Positions 121 to 41,168 of a DNA stretch of 48,531 nucleotides are shown in pieces (the stretch's first letter is position 1; every line of letters begins with the position of its first letter). Made by a program: the position numbers and the translations under genes. The notes below the pieces were generated by a model. The model was given only the letters and a program-made list of their open reading frames with translations. It was not told where the DNA came from and made no database searches. Source of the stretch: Chromatiales bacterium (GTDB lineage Bacteria > Pseudomonadota > Gammaproteobacteria > Chromatiales > Chromatiaceae); NCBI GenBank assembly GCA_030145425.1, contig JAQYVO010000138.1, forward strand, positions 1 to 48,531, written 5' to 3'.

Positions 121-873
121 GTGAGAATATTACTCAGCAACGACGACGGTTATCAGGCACCGGGATTAAGAGTGCTCATGGAGGTCCTTGCGCCATTGGC
201 CGAACTCACTGTTGTTGCACCTGAGCGAAACCGCAGTGGTGCCAGCAACTCCCTCACCCTGGATTACCCGATTCATGCGGAAACCCTGGAAGACGGGGTA
301 ATCCGGGTCGACGGTACACCAACAGATTGTGTTCATCTGGCTATTACCGGGCTTCTCGAAAAAGAGCCGGATATGGTTATCGCGGGAATCAATGCCGGCG
401 CCAACCTGGGAGACGACGTACTTTACTCCGGCACTGTTGCGGCAGCCACGGAAGGTCGATTCCTTGGCTTCCCGGCCATGGCGTTCTCCATGAACAGTCA
501 TGATCCGCAATACTACGAAACCGGCGCGCAGGTGACCGCTCAGCTGATCAGGAATCTGCAGGATAAGCCACTGGAGCCGGATACCATCATAAACGTCAAT
601 ATTCCCGACCTGCCGCTCGAAGAGCTAAAAGGTTTCCGGGCCACCCGCCTGGGGCACAGGCACAAGGCGGAGCCGGTGGTGAAATCACGGGATCCCCGGG
701 GACGTATAATATACTGGGTTGGTCCTGCCGGCGCGGAGCAGGATGCCGGTCCCGGCACCGACTTCCACGCCGTCAAGAATGGATACGTATCCGTTACACC
801 CTTGCAAATAGATTTGACCCGGCATACACATATCGAACCGCTTACCGACTGGCTTAGTGGAATAAAGCCATGA
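121..873 (+). CDS. surE: 5'/3'-nucleotidase SurE
   Basis: SurE is a divalent-metal-dependent phosphatase acting on nucleoside monophosphates (and in E. coli on short polyphosphate); it is cytoplasmic and linked to stationary-phase survival. The 250 residues match the family length. The N-terminal [12 protein letters not shown] holds the metal-binding Asp8-Asp9 pair, Ser39 lies in NRSGASN, and Asn91 lies in [11 protein letters not shown], the other metal ligands of the family. The start is GTG at 121, which opens exactly on the conserved [10 protein letters not shown]. The stop overlaps the pcm start as ATGA. The order surE-pcm-nlpD-rpoS is the classical gammaproteobacterial stress-survival block. 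Confidence 0.97.
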
Positions 874-1535
874 CCCTTGATTCACACCTGGGTATCGGGA
901 TGACCTCCCGGAGAACCCGAGAGCGGCTGATACAAAGGCTGCGCAAAGAGGGTATCAGGGACCGCTTGGTATTGAATGCCATCAGAACCACCCCCAGGCA
1001 TATTTTCGTGGATGAGGCGCTTGCCAGCCGCGCCTACGAGGATACCGCGCTGCCCATCGGACACGGACAGACGATTTCCCAGCCCTATATCGTGGCCCGA
1101 ATGACTGAACTGTTAATAGAGGCAGGGGCATTGGATACCGTTCTCGAGGTGGGCACCGGCTCCGGTTACCAGACTGCCGTGCTCTCCCTATTGGTCAATC
1201 GTATCTACAGCATTGAGCGAATCGGAGAACTGCAAAGGCAGGCACGCAGGCGCTTTCAATCCATGGGTATCAGGAACATAAGACTCCGCCACAGCGACGG
1301 TGGTCTGGGATTGCCTGACTATGGACCTTTCGACGGTATAATCGTCACTGCGGCACCCGAGGGCATTCCTCTTGCATTGGTTAATCAATTGAAGCAGGGG
1401 GGACGCATGGTGCTTCCAATCGGGGCCGACCAGGAGCAGATACTGGTTCGTGTGACCCGTACCAGTGACGGGTACGAAAAAGAACTTCTGGAAAGGGTGG
1501 TGTTCGTTCCTTTGCTGAGTGGAGTCCAGCGTTAA
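870..1535 (+). CDS. pcm: Protein-L-isoaspartate O-methyltransferase
   Basis: Pcm transfers a methyl group from S-adenosylmethionine to isoaspartyl residues in aged proteins, starting their repair to aspartate; it is cytoplasmic. The protein has 221 residues. The SAM-binding motif [10 protein letters not shown], lies at residues 92-100, and the family-typical [15 protein letters not shown] precedes it at about 62-76. The ATG at 870 overlaps the surE stop by four bases. A second in-frame ATG at 900 ([10 protein letters not shown]) lines up better with the start of many family members, so the first ten residues are uncertain. Translational coupling with surE is likely. Confidence 0.96.
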
Positions 1536-1567
1536 ATTGATTCAGAAAGGAGGAATCAAGGGCTGAC

Positions 1568-2437
1568 ATGCCTTCGTCAGTGCAGAATTTTCACCCGGTG
1601 GCCCCGGCAGACCGGAGTGCATTCAATCTTGTAATCCTGGTGCTGTTCGCGCTGATATGCACCCAGTTGCTTTCAGCCTGCGGTGCGCCGGTCCGCTACA
1701 AGGGCGATTCGCTCGAAAAGCGCAAGGTCAGAGCGGAGCACCGTCCCGCCACCTATAAGGTTCGTTCGGGGGATACGCTTTATTCCATCGCCTGGCGCTA
1801 TGGGCTGGACTTCCATGTGCTGGCGAGATGGAACGGCATCAAACCACCTCACACCATATATGCCGGACAGACTCTCCGGCTTCGTCAGCGCGGCAAGAAA
1901 ACCTCCCGAAAAACTGTGGTGAAAAAGAAAGCCACGCCTACAAAATCAGCATCCTCCAAATCCCGTAAAAAGGCAGTCACCCCGAGCCGGCAATCCACCG
2001 GAAAGAACAGCAAGCAGGCTGTCAAAGGGAGCAGCCGGCGACAACCCGTCGCTTCCAGTAAAAGATTGAAGTGGAAATGGCCTACTCAGGGCAAGGTCAG
2101 GAAAGGGTTTTCCGCCAGTGACCCAGCTCGCCAGGGTATCGAGATCGGCGGCAGCAGCGGCCAAAGAATCGCGGCATCAGAATCTGGCCGCGTAGTCTAT
2201 GCAGGGAGTGGCTTGATAGGGTATGGTCGTCTTGTAATCATTAAACATAACAAAAACTATTTGAGCGCTTACGGCCGCAATCGTAAATTGCTTGTGAAGG
2301 AGGGTGCTCAGGTCAAGAAGGGACAGGCTATTGCGGAAATGGGAAACAGCGGAAGCGGGGGACCGTCACTTCATTTCGAGATAAGAAAAAATGGTGAGCC
2401 TGTGAATCCTCTGAAGCTGCTGCCAGGCCGGCGCTGA
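1568..2437 (+). CDS. nlpD: NlpD-like lipoprotein, LysM plus degenerate LytM/M23 domain
   Basis: NlpD is an outer-membrane lipoprotein that activates the cell-division amidase AmiC at the septum. The N-terminal hydrophobic stretch ends in a lipobox, LLSAC, at about residues 34-38. A LysM domain follows (YKVRSGDTLYSIAWRYG, about 63-107), then a Lys/Ser-rich linker of about 60 residues, and a C-terminal M23 fold (about 170-289) with GIEIGG, SAYGRNRK and LHFEIR. The first and second Zn sites of active M23 enzymes are not intact (GIEI and AYGR replace the His-containing forms), as is known for NlpD/EnvC activators, so it is probably not itself a peptidase. A strong AAGGAGG lies at 1547-1553, somewhat far from the ATG. 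The rpoS promoter commonly sits inside nlpD. Confidence 0.93.
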   Translation: MPSSVQNFHPVAPADRSAFNLVILVLFALICTQLLSACGAPVRYKGDSLEKRKVRAEHRPATYKVRSGDTLYSIAWRYGLDFHVLARWNGIKPPHTIYAGQTLRLRQRGKKTSRKTVVKKKATPTKSASSKSRKKAVTPSRQSTGKNSKQAVKGSSRRQPVASSKRLKWKWPTQGKVRKGFSASDPARQGIEIGGSSGQRIAASESGRVVYAGSGLIGYGRLVIIKHNKNYLSAYGRNRKLLVKEGAQVKKGQAIAEMGNSGSGGPSLHFEIRKNGEPVNPLKLLPGRR

Positions 2438-3892: not shown

Positions 3893-5326
3893 ATGGACGC
3901 CGCAGCTGAACAAAAGTACGACTATGGTGTTGTACGTTGGTTCACCGTCATGTCAGTGGTCTACTTGGTGGTAGGCGCCATGGTCGGGGTGCTTATCGCC
4001 TCGCAACTGGCATGGCCGATTTTGAACTTTGATGTACCGTACCTTACTTTCGGGCGGCTCCGGCCACTCCATACCAATGCCGTGATATTTGCATTTGGTG
4101 GAAGCGTGCTGATGGCCACATCCTTCTACAGCGTCCAACGGACCTGCGCCACCAAGCTGTGGAGCAACAGGATGGCCTGGTTCACCTTCCTGGGCTGGAA
4201 TCTGATCATCGTATCCGCTGTGATCACCCTGCCGCTGGGCATCACCAGCGCCAAGGAATACGCCGAGTTGGAATGGCCGATCGATATCGCTATTGCGGTG
4301 GTCTGGATCAGCTATATGTTCAACTTCATCATGACCATCTCCCTGCGGAAGAGTCCGCACATCTATGTCTCGAACTGGTTCTTCCTGGGCATGATGGTGA
4401 TGATCACCTACCTGCATGTGGTCAACAGCCTGGCCATCCCCGTGGGTATGTTCAAATCCTACTCCATTTTTTCCGGTGTGCAGGACGCCATGATCCAGTG
4501 GTGGTGGGGACACAATGCCGTGGGCTTCTACCTGACCGCGGGCTTCCTTGGCATCATGTACTACTTCGTGCCCAAACAGGCAGGTCGGCCGGTCTATTCC
4601 TACCGCCTGTCAGTGATCCATTTCTGGGCACTGATGTTCGGTTACGTCTGGCTGGGAGCCCATCACCTCCAGTACACGGCACTGCCTGACTGGACCGGCT
4701 CACTGGGTGCGGCCATCTCGCTGGCCATGATCATCCCCTCATGGGGCGGCGCGGTAAACGGCATGATGACCCTCTCGGGTGCATGGGACAAGCTGCGCAC
4801 CGACTATGTGCTGCGCTTTCTCATCATGTCCCTGGCGTTCTACGCCATGTCCACGTTCGAAGGGCCGGTAATGTCTATCAAGACCGTCAACGCCCTGTCT
4901 CACTACACCGACTGGACGATTGGCCACGTGCACTCCGGAGCCCTGGGGTGGGTCGCCATGGTTGCCATCGGCGCCATTTATCATCTGATGACCCGCCTGT
5001 TCCACACCGAACTCTGGTCCACCAAGCTGGTTAATGCCCACTTCTGGACCGCTACCATCGGTACGGTGATCTACATCGTTGCCATGTGGGTTTCCGGCAT
5101 CATGCAGGGTCTGATGTGGCGCGCCTATGACGAGTACGGCACCCTGGCATACACCTTTGCCGAATCCGTCGAGGCGATGCATCCCTACTATGCGATGCGG
5201 GCCGTGGGCGGTGGGATATTCCTGTTGGGTGCGCTGCTGATGCTCATCAATATCCTGATGACCGTCGCAAAGGCCTCATCCGAAGGCAGTGTGCAGCGTG
5301 CGCGCACTGCGATTGCAGCAGCTTAA
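3893..5326 (+). CDS. ccoN: cbb3-type cytochrome c oxidase subunit I (CcoN)
   Basis: This is the catalytic subunit of the high-affinity cbb3 oxidase in the inner membrane. It reduces O2 at the heme b3-CuB centre and pumps protons. The 477 residues contain about 12 membrane helices. All expected ligands are visible: His60 and His347 for low-spin heme b, His207, His257 and His258 for CuB, His345 for heme b3, and Tyr251 (GYVWLGAHH), the residue cross-linked to a CuB histidine in cbb3 enzymes. The positions agree with those known for Pseudomonas stutzeri CcoN. The start is ATG at 3893 behind a G-rich Shine-Dalgarno. It leads the ccoNOQP operon and lies behind the FNR-type promoter. Confidence 0.98.
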
Positions 5327-12115: not shown

Positions 12116-12334
12116 ATGGACGTGATTTATGGCTTGATCCCCGGAATGATTCTCCTGGGGCTGATTGGCGTAGCCATTTTTTTCTGGGCCGCCAAAAGCG
12201 GGCAATTCGACGACCTGGAAGGCGAAGCCAATCGAATCCTCATGGACGATGATCTGCCACCCTCTCAGAAGCCGGAAGGAAAGCCGCAAGAGCCCGAAAG
12301 CCCCGAAGAACACCCCGTAGAGAAAAACGGTTAA
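12116..12334 (+). CDS. ccoS: cbb3 oxidase maturation protein CcoS
   Basis: CcoS is a short membrane protein required for cofactor insertion into cbb3 oxidase. The 72 residues have one N-terminal helix (about 5-26) followed directly by the signature WAAKSGQFDDLEGEANRIL and a Pro/Glu-rich tail of about 25 residues. The family is usually 50-70 residues long, so only the tail is variable. It lies 80 bases after ccoI and 19 bases before the first GTPase gene, suggesting read-through into that pair. Confidence 0.95.
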   Translation: MDVIYGLIPGMILLGLIGVAIFFWAAKSGQFDDLEGEANRILMDDDLPPSQKPEGKPQEPESPEEHPVEKNG

Positions 12335-12353: not shown

Positions 12354-14123
12354 ATGACCTCTCACCCCCCCTTGGAGTCGCTTGAACAACTGCTCGAGCG
12401 CCTGCATACCTACTACAGGGCGTCAAAGCCTGCGCAGACAGCGTCTGACTCCACTTCGGAACAGGCCCTGATCTACGGAACAGCGCTGTTGCGACGACGA
12501 AGACTCAGGCTAAGCGGATGGCGAATCCCCACGCAACTGGTGGTCATCGGTCCAACCCAGTCCGGAAAGAGCACATTGGTCAATCTGCTTCTCGGAATCG
12601 AAGCTGCCGAGGCGAGTCCCCTGGCAGGGCATACCCGCTATCCCCAGGGCTTTACAACGTGCGGAAAAGTCGAGGCCATAAGGGAGGAACTGACGGAGCT
12701 GCTTCCCGGCTGGACCCATGTATCTTCCGGCGAGAACAACCGGAATCGAGCGGACATCTTTTCCCTGAATGATCTCGACGACCGCGGAAACCGTTTATCC
12801 GATCAATCGACGATATGGGATTCACCGGATTTCGATTCGGTCAATTCGCGGGAATACGGCGATATGGTACCGGTAATCTGCGCAATGGCGGATATTCTGA
12901 TATTGGCCGTCAGTCGCGAGAAGTACGCTGATCAAAGTGTATGGCGACTATTGAATCTGATCGCACCGGTGAAAACCCCTCTGATCATCTGCCTCAATAA
13001 GACTTCGGGACCGGAGGCGGAACAACTGCTCGTATCGATGAGACACCGTCTTGAGGAAGCGTCGATCCCATATACCGCCCTGCTGACGCTACCCTATGTG
13101 GCTGATGTACAGCAAACGCTCTGGGAGACCGGAGCGGCTGATATGATCAGAACCCGGATATCCGGGCTGCTTGACCATGCCGGCTTCGATGTCGGAGACT
13201 CGCACCTGGCATCACTGCTGAATCGTCACTGGGCTGAATGGATTCGGCCAGTGCGTCAGGAACACGCGGCGGCCGAAAAATGGCAAAACCTGGTGGACGA
13301 AGAACTCGGGCAGTTCGTGGAGCTTTACCAGCAGGACTATCTGAACAATCCCGACTACGCCGATACGATGCAGCGGGCCATCGTTGAGCTGCTCGAGCTT
13401 CTGGAAATACCGGGCATCGCCGGTGCCCTGATACAGATGCGCAAGGTGCTCACCTGGCCGGCGCGCAAGGCTCATGATGTCTACAGGAAAAAGTTTCCGG
13501 GAAGCAAGCCTGGCGGAAAAGGGCATGAGGTCAAGGTGATCGAAGAGGGCAGCACCCATCTCCTGGCCAGACTTCGACAACAGATATCGGGTCAGATTAC
13601 CGGAGAGACGCGGGTAACCATCGCCTGGTGGTCGAATCTCGATCTTCGCCTCAAGCAGGATTGCAACGATATAGAGACGGCCCTCTTTAGTGAGCTGAAC
13701 GCCTATCAAACGGAATTCGACGAACAGATTAAACAGGCCGGAAGACTCCTGTTTGAACATCTCAAGCAGCATCCGGTAACCCTGAACAGTCTGCGTGCGG
13801 CGAGAACCACTACCGATGCCATCGCCCTGCTGGTTGCCATAAAGACCGGGGGGTTCGGCTTGAGCGACCTGCTGCTCGCCCCGGCCATGCTTTCCTTCTC
13901 CTCCCTGCTCGCCGAAGGCGCGGCGGGACACTACATGACACAAGTAGAAAAGGATCTGAAAAATGCGCAGCTGGCCGCAGTGACTGACCGGCTTGCCTTT
14001 GGGATTTTGCGGAAAAGGCTGCTGGAACTGCCGGCCCTGATGTCTCAGGAGGGCTGCTGCGCCGTATCAACTCAGTGGCTGGCGGATGCAGAGAGCCAAC
14101 TGGCAATGCTGAAGGGGCCATAG
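12354..14123 (+). CDS. Large P-loop GTPase, first of a tandem pair
   Basis: I do not recognise a named gene. The 589 residues contain a Walker A motif GPTQSGKST (66-74), a G3-like segment DSPDFDSV (about 156-163) and a G4-like NKTS (215-218), where the final Asp of the usual NKxD is replaced. A long, mainly helical C-terminal part follows. A moderately hydrophobic Gly/Leu-rich stretch near residues 490-525 could touch or enter membrane. This architecture (GTPase head plus long helical region) resembles dynamin-like or YfjP/Era-like bacterial GTPases. The gene starts 19 bases after ccoS and ends 16 before the second GTPase, so all are probably co-transcribed. A role in oxidase assembly or membrane remodelling is speculation. 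Confidence 0.8.
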   Translation: MTSHPPLESLEQLLERLHTYYRASKPAQTASDSTSEQALIYGTALLRRRRLRLSGWRIPTQLVVIGPTQSGKSTLVNLLLGIEAAEASPLAGHTRYPQGFTTCGKVEAIREELTELLPGWTHVSSGENNRNRADIFSLNDLDDRGNRLSDQSTIWDSPDFDSVNSREYGDMVPVICAMADILILAVSREKYADQSVWRLLNLIAPVKTPLIICLNKTSGPEAEQLLVSMRHRLEEASIPYTALLTLPYVADVQQTLWETGAADMIRTRISGLLDHAGFDVGDSHLASLLNRHWAEWIRPVRQEHAAAEKWQNLVDEELGQFVELYQQDYLNNPDYADTMQRAIVELLELLEIPGIAGALIQMRKVLTWPARKAHDVYRKKFPGSKPGGKGHEVKVIEEGSTHLLARLRQQISGQITGETRVTIAWWSNLDLRLKQDCNDIETALFSELNAYQTEFDEQIKQAGRLLFEHLKQHPVTLNSLRAARTTTDAIALLVAIKTGGFGLSDLLLAPAMLSFSSLLAEGAAGHYMTQVEKDLKNAQLAAVTDRLAFGILRKRLLELPALMSQEGCCAVSTQWLADAESQLAMLKGP

Positions 14124-14139
14124 GGCCGGTGAGTTTCCA

Positions 14140-15765
14140 ATGAAAGATCAATACGAACAGGACCTGCTTGCCCTGGAGGCATGGGCACAATCGTCAAACG
14201 AGGCAGGTTGGCTTCCATCAAGGGAATTGGATGAACTGGGCAGGCTCGAGAAACAGCAGGCGGAGGCGCTGTTTGCGCAACAAGGTCAGCGTCCCCTCAT
14301 TGTGGCCTTTTTCGGTGGTACGGGCGTCGGCAAGAGCAGTCTGCTAAATCGGCTGGCAGGTGTGCAGATCGCCAGGGTCGGTGTGGAACGCCCAACGTCA
14401 CGAGAGGCAACCCTTTATCTGCACCGGGATTACCAGATCGGTAATCTGCCCGAAGAGCTGCCGATGGATGAAACCCGTATTGAGTATCACGACGACGACA
14501 GCCGCCGGCTGATTGCCTGGCTGGACATGCCGGACATCGACAGCGTGGTCGAACAACACCGACAACTGGTGGAAGCGTGGCTCCCCTATGTGGACTGGCT
14601 GATCTACGTCATGAGCCCTGAACGCTATCAGGACGACCTCGGTTGGCGGTTTCTGCAGCAGCGGGGCAATCGACACTCCTGGCTGTTCGTCATCAATCAC
14701 TGGGATCAGGGAAATGAGGCCCAGGCAGGCCAGTTGTACGGCCGTCTGGAAATAGAGGGATTCAAAGAACCCCGAATACTTCGCACCTGTTGCCTGCAGG
14801 ATTCGCATCCAGATGAGTTCTCCAAGCTGGAGGAGACCGTAGACCGTGCAATCCGCAGCTACGGACTGGAGCTATTGCAACAGCTGGGCCTGCAGGCGCG
14901 GCACAGGGAACTGCGCTCGCTTGCCGCCCGCTATGCGGCGGTTCTCGATTCATGGCATCTGGAGGCTTTGCAAGCGCCCTGGCAGGACATTTTGAATCAA
15001 CATCTGGACGGAATCGGTAATGAGCTTATGCTCAATGCCGATCTCATGGCGCGATCCCTCAAAGAAACTCAACATCTGGGCTTCCGCAAGACCGGGCTGC
15101 CAGCAGAGACGCTTCAGCAACTGCCTGATCGGCTGCCGGCGGATACATGGAACCGGCGCATCGATACCAGGATGGACACCCTGATACTGGATTTACAGCA
15201 GCGGCTGCGGGATAAGGGAATTCAACTGCCCCCTATAGAGAGGGCCTTCGACGGTTTTGGCGTACAGGTCGTGCGCGAGAGATTTCTTGCACAAAGCGGT
15301 AAAACGATCGCAAGGGCAGTGGCAAGACCGGGGACTTTACTCACGAGAGGTTTGAATCGGTTGCTTAACTGGCTGACCTGGCTGCTGCCTCTGCTCGCCT
15401 CCGTGTGGGCCACCTTTCATGTGGTAATTGGTTTCTATGGGGGAACTAGATACGGCGAGGCGTTTCTGGGCATCGATTTTGCCGTGCACGCCCTGTTGCT
15501 CATCCTGTTGTCCTGGCTGATACCCTGGCTGCTATCGCGCCGTCTTGAGCCGTCAGCGGCGGCTTCGGCGGGCAGGGGGTTGAAACAGGCTATTGGCCGG
15601 TGCCTCGGCGATACCCGGAAAGAAGGCGGGGAGATCCTGCAGGTTATGATCCGGGATCTACAGGATCAACGGGCAGGCCTGGCGTCCATAAGGGACGGGA
15701 TGGAGAAAGACACGCCTGAGTCTGCGCCCCTGGCGGGCGCAGGTAGTCTTTACTCCGCCGGTTAG
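14140..15765 (+). CDS. Large membrane-anchored P-loop GTPase, second of a tandem pair
   Basis: No gene symbol can be assigned with confidence. The 541 residues contain Walker A GGTGVGKSS (59-67), a possible switch I Thr in RPTSREAT (about 84-91), G3-like DMPDIDSV (129-136) and G4-like NHWD (186-189). After a helical middle part, two hydrophobic segments (about 408-435 and 448-470) should anchor it in the inner membrane. The G3 form D-x-P-D-x-D-S-V is shared with the upstream GTPase, so the two are probably homologous and may work as a heteromer. The gene starts 16 bases after its partner. It is followed by a palindromic repeat and a convergent gene. Confidence 0.82.
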   Translation: MKDQYEQDLLALEAWAQSSNEAGWLPSRELDELGRLEKQQAEALFAQQGQRPLIVAFFGGTGVGKSSLLNRLAGVQIARVGVERPTSREATLYLHRDYQIGNLPEELPMDETRIEYHDDDSRRLIAWLDMPDIDSVVEQHRQLVEAWLPYVDWLIYVMSPERYQDDLGWRFLQQRGNRHSWLFVINHWDQGNEAQAGQLYGRLEIEGFKEPRILRTCCLQDSHPDEFSKLEETVDRAIRSYGLELLQQLGLQARHRELRSLAARYAAVLDSWHLEALQAPWQDILNQHLDGIGNELMLNADLMARSLKETQHLGFRKTGLPAETLQQLPDRLPADTWNRRIDTRMDTLILDLQQRLRDKGIQLPPIERAFDGFGVQVVRERFLAQSGKTIARAVARPGTLLTRGLNRLLNWLTWLLPLLASVWATFHVVIGFYGGTRYGEAFLGIDFAVHALLLILLSWLIPWLLSRRLEPSAAASAGRGLKQAIGRCLGDTRKEGGEILQVMIRDLQDQRAGLASIRDGMEKDTPESAPLAGAGSLYSAG

Positions 15766-15887: not shown

Positions 15888-16556
15888 TTATTGAGTCGGT
15901 TGTGCTTCGAGCGGATCGAGTAGTTCACTGAACCGGGCAGGTATCACGTACTGGAAAACTTCCCTGCCGTCAGGATTCACGGCGATGTCCAGGCCCCGGT
16001 CCGGATAGAGCCAGTGGGTGATGCCGGAGGCTTCCACGATTCGACGCGCCGGCTCACCAAAGCGGGCGGCGATAAGATCAGGCTCGAGATTAGTTCCGGG
16101 CATATAGGTAATGTGGACCACCTGGGCCTGTCCCAGCAGATCCAGATCGGGTTGTGCAAGCTCCACTTTTCTGGTCCCGTCTCCCAATTGGCTGATCCGC
16201 AGACCTCTATCGTAAAGCTGCAGTGCGGTTGCGGGGTCGACATCCAGGCTGAAAACCATGTCTGCGCGTATACCGCCCAGGTAGAGCCCCTTGAAATAGG
16301 TCTCAAAGTAGAATCTCTCAGCCGGCGAAATAAAAAGATTGGTTTTCCCCTGTTCCTGAAACGCCTCCCGGGCCTCAGCCAGGCTGCTTCTCCCGAGGGT
16401 CAAACCGAAAACCGTCGATTGGCCTCTTTCATCCACCTGAATCAGCCACGGCAACCTCGGATGCTCGTCTACGGTGCGCCCACCGGGGAGCAGAATTGCC
16501 AGTGCAACGGCGATCAATGCGGCAATGAAAACGCTGAGAAAGATTTTTCGTTCCAT
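15888..16556 (-). CDS. Hypothetical membrane-anchored protein
   Basis: I do not recognise this 222-residue protein. It starts with a short basic end (MERK) and one hydrophobic segment (about residues 5-25), which should anchor it in the inner membrane with the rest in the periplasm. The remaining 195 residues are soluble, mixed alpha/beta in appearance, without cysteines or recognisable motifs. The segment FGLTLGRSSLAEAREAFQ resembles the helix-loop beginnings of small repeat folds in envelope proteins, but I make no claim. ATG at 16556 is the only good start. It is transcribed alone, away from the inverted-repeat element at 16648. Confidence 0.75.
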   Translation of the reverse strand: MERKIFLSVFIAALIAVALAILLPGGRTVDEHPRLPWLIQVDERGQSTVFGLTLGRSSLAEAREAFQEQGKTNLFISPAERFYFETYFKGLYLGGIRADMVFSLDVDPATALQLYDRGLRISQLGDGTRKVELAQPDLDLLGQAQVVHITYMPGTNLEPDLIAARFGEPARRIVEASGITHWLYPDRGLDIAVNPDGREVFQYVIPARFSELLDPLEAQPTQ

Positions 16557-23089: not shown

Positions 23090-23593
23090 TCAATTAGGCC
23101 GGAACACCGGATTGGTAGGCTGATTGTAGATCTCTGAACCCTGGTATTGAGGAACGGCAGCCGGCACCGGTTGCTGTTGAGAGGACTCCAGTTCCATTAT
23201 CCTTTGTTCCAGTTCCCTTATCCTGGCCTGAGAATCACCGTCATAGGATGGGGTTGAGGGCGGAGCAGTATAGCTGCCCCCGGATTGAGGATTGGCATAG
23301 CCCGAATTCGGAGCCCCATACCCAGGAGCACCATAGCCGTAACCCGGGGCGCCGTATCCATATCCCGGTGCACCATAGCCGTAAGGGGCTCCGTATCCGT
23401 AACCAGGAGCCCCGTACCCGGGACCATCATTGTAATAACCGTCGTTGTAGCGATTGCCACCACCCATCCACCTACCGGGACTCATCATGTTGAAGGGGCT
23501 GAATCCTGCCGCGCCGGCATCATCATTCACAACCAGGCCGGTCGATCCAAGCACTACGAAACAACAAAATAACGCTATCGTTTTTCTTTGCAC
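23090..23593 (-). CDS. Secreted Gly-Tyr-Ala-Pro repeat protein with C-terminal heptads (paralogue A)
   Basis: I do not recognise a named family. The 167 residues have a signal peptide (about 1-29, ending GAA), the motif [18 protein letters not shown] (about 34-51), about eight repeats of the type GYGAP or GYGYGAP (57-97), a Pro/Ser linker, and a short heptad segment, [13 protein letters not shown] (about 122-136), before a Gln/Pro-rich tail. The layout, the WMGG motif and even the start context (GTG CAA AxA AAA) recur in the protein at 40599, so the two are paralogues. It is probably periplasmic or surface-exposed with a flexible aromatic-Gly tract. The start is GTG at 23593 with GAGGAG upstream. 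Confidence 0.85.
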
Positions 23594-40598: not shown

Positions 40599-41168
40599 GT
40601 GCAAAAAAAGCTCATAAAACTTAGTGGACTGGCATTGGCGGTCAGTTTGCTGCTTACAGGTTCGGCATACGCTATGGATATGGGGAACATGATGAATCCT
40701 TCCAAGTGGATGGGGGGAAACAGGGACAGGGATCGTTATGACGATTCCTATAGAGATCCTGGATACGGCTATGGCCCAGGATACGGCGGCAGTCCCGGAT
40801 ACGGCGGAGGTCCCGGATACGGCGGAGGCCCCGGATACGGTGGCGGTCCCGGATACGGTGGCGGTCCCGGATACGGCGGCGGTCCAGGTTACGGTGGCGG
40901 TCCCGGATACGGCGGCAGTCCCGGATACAGTGGCAGTCCCGGATACGGTGGCAATCCCGGATACGGCGGCAATCCCGGATACGGTGGCAATCCCGGATAT
41001 GGCAGTGGCTCCGGATACGGTGGCGGCCCTGGATATGGGGGGGCTCCCGGTGGCGGCACCGGCTACGGTGCTCCACCCCCTTCACAAGCTCCCACCGGGT
41101 CTGACGGGTCGGCTCAGGAGATCAGGCGCCTGCAGCAACGCATCCGGCAGTTAGAGGCTGGACAGTAG
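40599..41168 (+). CDS. Secreted Gly-Tyr-Gly-Gly-Pro repeat protein with C-terminal heptads (paralogue B)
   Basis: The 189 residues have a signal peptide (about 1-25, ending AYA), then MGNMMNPSKWMGGNRDRDRYDD (about 28-49), about 15 repeats of PGYGGG/PGYGGS/PGYGGN (about 54-148), a short linker, and a heptad segment, EIRRLQQRIRQLE (about 174-186), at the very end. The order of parts and the MM-x-P-x-x-WMGG motif match the protein at 23090. The repeat DNA is a run of near-identical 18-base units, so copy number may vary between strains. The product is probably exported and flexible; function unknown. GTG at 40599 has GAGGA ten bases upstream, as in the paralogue. Confidence 0.85.
   Translation: MQKKLIKLSGLALAVSLLLTGSAYAMDMGNMMNPSKWMGGNRDRDRYDDSYRDPGYGYGPGYGGSPGYGGGPGYGGGPGYGGGPGYGGGPGYGGGPGYGGGPGYGGSPGYSGSPGYGGNPGYGGNPGYGGNPGYGSGSGYGGGPGYGGAPGGGTGYGAPPPSQAPTGSDGSAQEIRRLQQRIRQLEAGQ

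Follow-up and report, generated by a model that had tools for sequence, protein, structure and literature searches.

The products of two adjacent genes directly behind a cbb3 oxidase maturation operon are very probably bacterial dynamin-like proteins that work as an obligate heteromeric pair and would tether, bend, fuse or repair a membrane. The pair lies in a 48,531-nucleotide stretch from a Chromatiaceae bacterium (GCA_030145425.1, contig JAQYVO010000138.1; hereafter the window), and its predicted folds, its distribution among genomes and the known biology of paired dynamin-like proteins (DLPs) together point to what is probably a membrane tethering or fusion machine and not a respiratory assembly factor.

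Two Related GTPase Genes Follow ccoS

The two genes and the features on which the analysis draws are as follows, all on the forward strand.

12116-12334, forward: ccoS, last cbb3 maturation gene, a neighbor outside the GTPase pair
12354-14123, forward: GTPase 1 (589 aa; protein 1), dynamin-like protein with a predicted paddle hairpin
12549-12572, forward: GTPase 1 G1 GPTQSGKS, from residues 66-73
12819-12842, forward: GTPase 1 G3 region DSPDFDSV, from residues 156-163
12996-13007, forward: GTPase 1 G4 NKTS, final Asp absent, from residues 215-218
13806-13928, forward: GTPase 1 residues 485-525, a conserved hydrophobic hairpin that may serve as a membrane paddle
14140-15765, forward: GTPase 2 (541 aa; protein 2), dynamin-like protein with two predicted membrane helices and mitofusin-like topology
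14314-14337, forward: GTPase 2 G1 GGTGVGKS, from residues 59-66
14524-14547, forward: GTPase 2 G3 region DMPDIDSV, from residues 129-136
14695-14706, forward: GTPase 2 G4 NHWD, Lys absent, from residues 186-189
15349-15552, forward: GTPase 2 residues 404-434 and 438-471, two hydrophobic segments predicted to form a transmembrane hairpin

The coordinates agree with the spacing given in an earlier note on this DNA (19 bases from ccoS to GTPase 1 and 16 from there to GTPase 2), and its reading of the motifs holds as well: the unusual G3 form D-x-P-D-[FI]-D-S is common to both proteins (DSPDFDS in protein 1, DMPDIDS in protein 2), and protein 1 lacks the final Asp of NKxD. The mutual relatedness that the same note had proposed is confirmed by BLASTP (E 7e-6) and by profile-profile comparison (probability 98.9, E 2.6e-17), with the homology located in the GTPase domain. 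Both genes are real, intact and well conserved; dN/dS is about 0.18 for each (NG86, against a relative about 83% identical), which is purifying selection and which, together with conservation across many genomes, means that the pair is not a chance observation.

Across the family, G1, the G2 Thr and the G3 D-x-P-D are conserved in practically all members of both proteins, and Asp in place of Gly in G3 is unusual for the dynamin superfamily; mitofusin G3 has Gly where the window GTPases have Asp. Neither protein carries a standard NKxD as G4 throughout, and the departures complement each other: in protein 1 the Lys stays and the Asp is mostly missing (NK in 36 of 36 sequences, Asp in 9 of 36), while the N[HQR]xD of protein 2 retains Asp in 35 of 36 sequences and replaces Lys by His, Gln or Arg. 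This may reflect an altered nucleotide preference or a composite active site. The N-x-W-D of the window protein 2 may resemble the G4 of mitofusins, for which a text search of the literature returned nothing.

Predicted Folds Place Both Proteins in the Dynamin Superfamily

AlphaFold models were built from family alignments of each protein, with mean pLDDT 79 and pTM 0.75 for protein 1 and mean pLDDT 83 and pTM 0.67 for protein 2; pLDDT falls below 50 at residues 353-374 and 501-516 of protein 1, near or in its predicted membrane part. Foldseek searches of the PDB with protein 2 return the bacterial dynamin-like protein BDLP (2j68, E 1.5e-9), the Campylobacter pair (5owv, E 2e-9) and IniA (6j72, E 3.5e-9), and those with protein 1 return 5owv (E 8.8e-8) together with LeoA (4aur) and BDLP (2j69), both at E 3.2e-7. 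In VIA-align comparisons, protein 2 matches yeast Fzo1 with Z 23.0 (rmsd 3.3 over 291 residues) and mitofusin 1 with Z 21.6 (rmsd 3.4 over 289 residues), and protein 1 matches Fzo1 with Z 19.5 (rmsd 5.6 over 305 residues). The Fzo1 and mitofusin alignments span model residues 1 to about 533 of protein 2, a range that includes both its N- and C-terminal helices, and residues 5 to 589 of protein 1. Era and other relatives that share only the G domain align over about 160 residues with Z 16-17; the surplus in the Fzo1 and mitofusin signal thus comes from the helical neck, which both models predict to be formed by the two ends of the chain. For a putative trunk, both models predict long helices, but whole-chain matches are loose (TM-scores 0.2-0.4, rmsd 14-40); differences at hinges could explain these low scores.

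At the level of sequence profiles, Pfam Dynamin_N is found at E <=0.001 in 20 of 20 members of the protein 2 family and in 13 of 18 of the protein 1 family, and against the gathering cut-off of 27 the window proteins score 28.5 (protein 2, above) and 22.4 (protein 1, below). Among Pfam families, protein 1 matches MMR_HSR1 best, and PDB searches with single sequences and profiles give mainly P-loop matches, for example to Der and Era. The earlier suggestion of dynamin-like large GTPases is upheld by the predicted folds of both proteins, which match the dynamin superfamily, and the devotion to respiratory assembly that accompanied it is not: the fold matches are to Fzo1, mitofusin 1, BDLP, IniA and LeoA, well-described families with other functions.

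Both Proteins Carry a Predicted Membrane-Binding Tip

The two membrane segments proposed earlier for protein 2 are evident as strongly hydrophobic stretches at residues 404-434 and 438-471 in family means over 20 sequences; in the model they form adjacent helices with long helices at either side, and the predicted order of the membrane hairpin is that of mitofusins. A clear transmembrane helix is missing from protein 1, which has a conserved 41-residue hydrophobic stretch with a KTGG turn (residues 485-525), predicted as a helical hairpin at low confidence, and this hairpin is likely a paddle. Judging from the hydrophobic segments in the family-mean profiles, a putative membrane-binding tip is thus present in both proteins.

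The Two Genes Are Inherited as a Pair

Of 55 relatives searched with each protein separately, 9 carry protein 1, and these same 9 carry protein 2. In a set of 369 Gammaproteobacteria, profile searches gave strong matches in 28 genomes, 26 of which carry both proteins, and at the two apparent single-protein carriers the loci are cut by contig ends; homologues of these GTPases occur in pairs, not singly, and the partners are obligate, each inherited with the other. At most loci the two genes lie next to each other, with the stop of one and the start of the next overlapping by 1-8 bases at several of them, and in one lineage (L041, L103, L104) both have been retained with other genes between them and 2.4 to about 10 kb separating them. 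Over 34 pairs, the distances in protein 1 and in protein 2 show a correlation of 0.84, as shared vertical inheritance would also produce. Large frames spanning both genes at L029 and L106 suggested natural gene fusions, a reading that we reject: the homologous stretches are in different frames or contain stops, and the long frame is a shadow frame.

All 18 loci from a single-sequence genome scan belong to MAGs labelled Gammaproteobacteria or gammaproteobacterial groups, and a 378-genome Pseudomonadota sample searched at E 1e-15 contained no carrier besides the window itself, from which the family appears to be rather rare and, so far, gammaproteobacterial.

The surroundings of the pair vary by lineage, and include an arrangement of a ubiA-like gene, the pair and a comF-like gene, another with a sigma-factor gene and a tatC-like gene, and others (names by inspection). 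At six loci (L101, L103, L104, L105, L106 and L108) the pair or one of its members is found near genes for a UbiA-like prenyltransferase, ComF-like and RadC-like proteins and a glutathione-reductase-like flavoprotein, again named by inspection, in a lineage-specific fixed neighborhood unrelated to cbb3. Genes resembling surE, pcm and lytM precede the cco operon in the window (121-2437), and in another lineage (G338; L107, 1037-4318) they come immediately after GTPase 2. Downstream of the pair, a 222-aa open reading frame on the reverse strand (15888-16556) has a counterpart after GTPase 2 in L026, with 57% identity. Elsewhere in the window, two similar-looking small proteins (23090-23593, reverse strand; 40599-41168, forward strand) are apparently paralogues, each with an N-terminal hydrophobic stretch and a part rich in Met, Gly, Asp and Tyr.

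Weighing a Respiratory Role and Other Alternatives

The cbb3 operon of the window starts with ccoN at 3893, followed by ccoO (5289), ccoP (6254), ccoG (7496), ccoH (8942) and ccoI (9534), and its CcoS is identified by TIGR00847 (63 bits against a cut-off of 28). A dedicated role in cbb3 oxidase assembly or in organizing the respiratory membrane, as the earlier note had envisaged, would fit the placement of the pair immediately behind ccoS, seen in five genomes from three related genera (three of the window genus and one from each of two other genera of the same family), as well as the gap before GTPase 1, in which no terminator-like site was seen and which, at only 19 bases, may allow co-transcription of the pair with the cco maturation genes in the window lineage. 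The neighborhood survey, however, found cco linkage in this one clade and most homologues unlinked: in the protein 1 tree the ccoS-linked sequences form a single group nested among unlinked homologues, and two genomes of the same family (G022 and G032) have the pair and the cbb3 genes on separate contigs. Moreover, ccoO is absent from 10 of the 28 pair-bearing genomes, two of them rated 100% complete in one or two contigs, and in the same ten neither ccoN nor ccoG was found above the family cut-off; conversely, 179 of 197 ccoO-bearing genomes lack the pair, and its association with ccoO among the 369 Gammaproteobacteria is not significant (Fisher p 0.24). A search of the available literature for a link of cbb3 or ccoS with dynamins returned nothing relevant. 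On linkage and phyletic distribution we reject the dedicated cbb3 role, which we regard as highly improbable, and the position of the pair beside the cbb3 genes looks accidental, a local matter of gene order, with nothing to indicate that the pair acts on the oxidase.

The alternative of ordinary GTPases, of ribosome type or like YfjP and Era, to which unrelated C-terminal helices are attached would account for MMR_HSR1 as the best Pfam match of protein 1 and for the P-loop matches of PDB sequence profiles to Der, Era and similar proteins, but the mitofusin and Fzo1 fold matches run through the helical neck and outscore those confined to the G domain, and the membrane segments are conserved, so that this reading hardly merits credence. 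A membrane-damage or phage-protection machine like Bacillus subtilis DynA is a more specific form of our main reading, and is suggested by the patchy distribution of the pair and by a weak similarity to the PADLOC LeoA profile (E 1.3e-7, only 45 residues around the P-loop); DynA is a fused DLP pair that acts only on damaged membrane. It gives phage resistance at the level of the population (PMC8844932). The neighbors of the pair nevertheless resemble core genes for the most part, in positions fixed within each lineage, and not defense islands, and PADLOC gave no defense-family match beyond the P-loop, which makes such a protective function unlikely.

A Proposed Anchored Subunit and a Proposed Paddle Subunit

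Most bacterial DLPs occur as side-by-side pairs (PMC6104087). In the Campylobacter jejuni pair, Cj-DLP1 and Cj-DLP2 singly hardly hydrolyze GTP and their 2:2 tetramer does, and efficient lipid binding is likewise confined to the mixed tetramer, which also tethers liposomes (PMC6104087); work on LeoA takes a similar view of DLP pairing (PMC4159319). By analogy with these systems, and from the architecture predicted here, we propose that protein 2 would be permanently anchored in the membrane by the two-helix hairpin within its long helical part, in the fashion of mitofusins, while protein 1 would probably insert its hydrophobic hairpin reversibly, like the paddle of Nostoc BDLP1. The two unlike GTPase domains would then pair in a GTP-dependent manner, on the same or on opposing membranes, and the membrane would as a result be tethered, bent, fused or repaired. 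We infer the hetero-oligomer, its dependence on GTP, the choice of membrane and the outcome from this architecture and these analogies.

Several known systems share features with the pair and also differ from it. The Campylobacter proteins (Cj0411/Cj0412; 5OWV, 5OXF) are likewise encoded by two adjacent divergent dynamin-like genes, have a membrane-binding tip on a trunk and rank first for protein 1 and second for protein 2 in Foldseek, but no significant sequence match to the window proteins was found, their subunits are larger (84.5 and 71.2 kDa) and include a Campylobacter-specific assembly domain, and in the window pair it is protein 2 that has a predicted transmembrane hairpin. Mitofusin 1/2 and yeast Fzo1 give the best Z-scores and share the GTPase domain, the predicted neck of N- and C-terminal helices and, with protein 2, a predicted membrane hairpin set into the helical region; the structural alignment nevertheless has about 14% identity, and the window pair is bacterial and has a second partner without clear transmembrane helices. 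Nostoc BDLP1 (2J68, 2J69) resembles protein 1 in fold and in its hydrophobic helical hairpin as candidate paddle, again with no significant sequence match to the window proteins found. LeoA/LeoBC and IniA/IniC are tandem bacterial dynamin-like genes with matching folds, although the PADLOC LeoA profile matches no more than the P-loop region (protein 2, residues 36-80; protein 1, residues 61-81). B. subtilis DynA and Streptomyces DynA/DynB, likened here by their description in the literature, are fused or paired DLPs that act on the cell membrane.

The complementary G4 losses and the unusual D-x-P-D-x-D-S switch also allow a bolder reading, in which the pair would form a composite, asymmetric GTPase active only as a mixed G-dimer; we put this forward tentatively, as speculative and less likely than not. 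Equally tentative is its extension, that the anchored mitofusin-like subunit and the transient paddle subunit would together make up a compact bacterial two-component membrane fusogen.

Tandem dynamin-like pairs have already been recognized in bacteria and few have been studied, and the window pair is a new, narrowly distributed one. With 541 and 589 residues, it would combine, in compact form, a transmembrane-anchored mitofusin-like subunit with a paddle-type partner, and its members co-occur strictly even where the genes have moved kilobases apart. Such a pair would offer a tractable system for the study of heterotypic membrane tethering. Judged by the gene order of a single lineage, it would have been mislabelled as a respiratory assembly factor, a likely misreading that the wider survey corrects.
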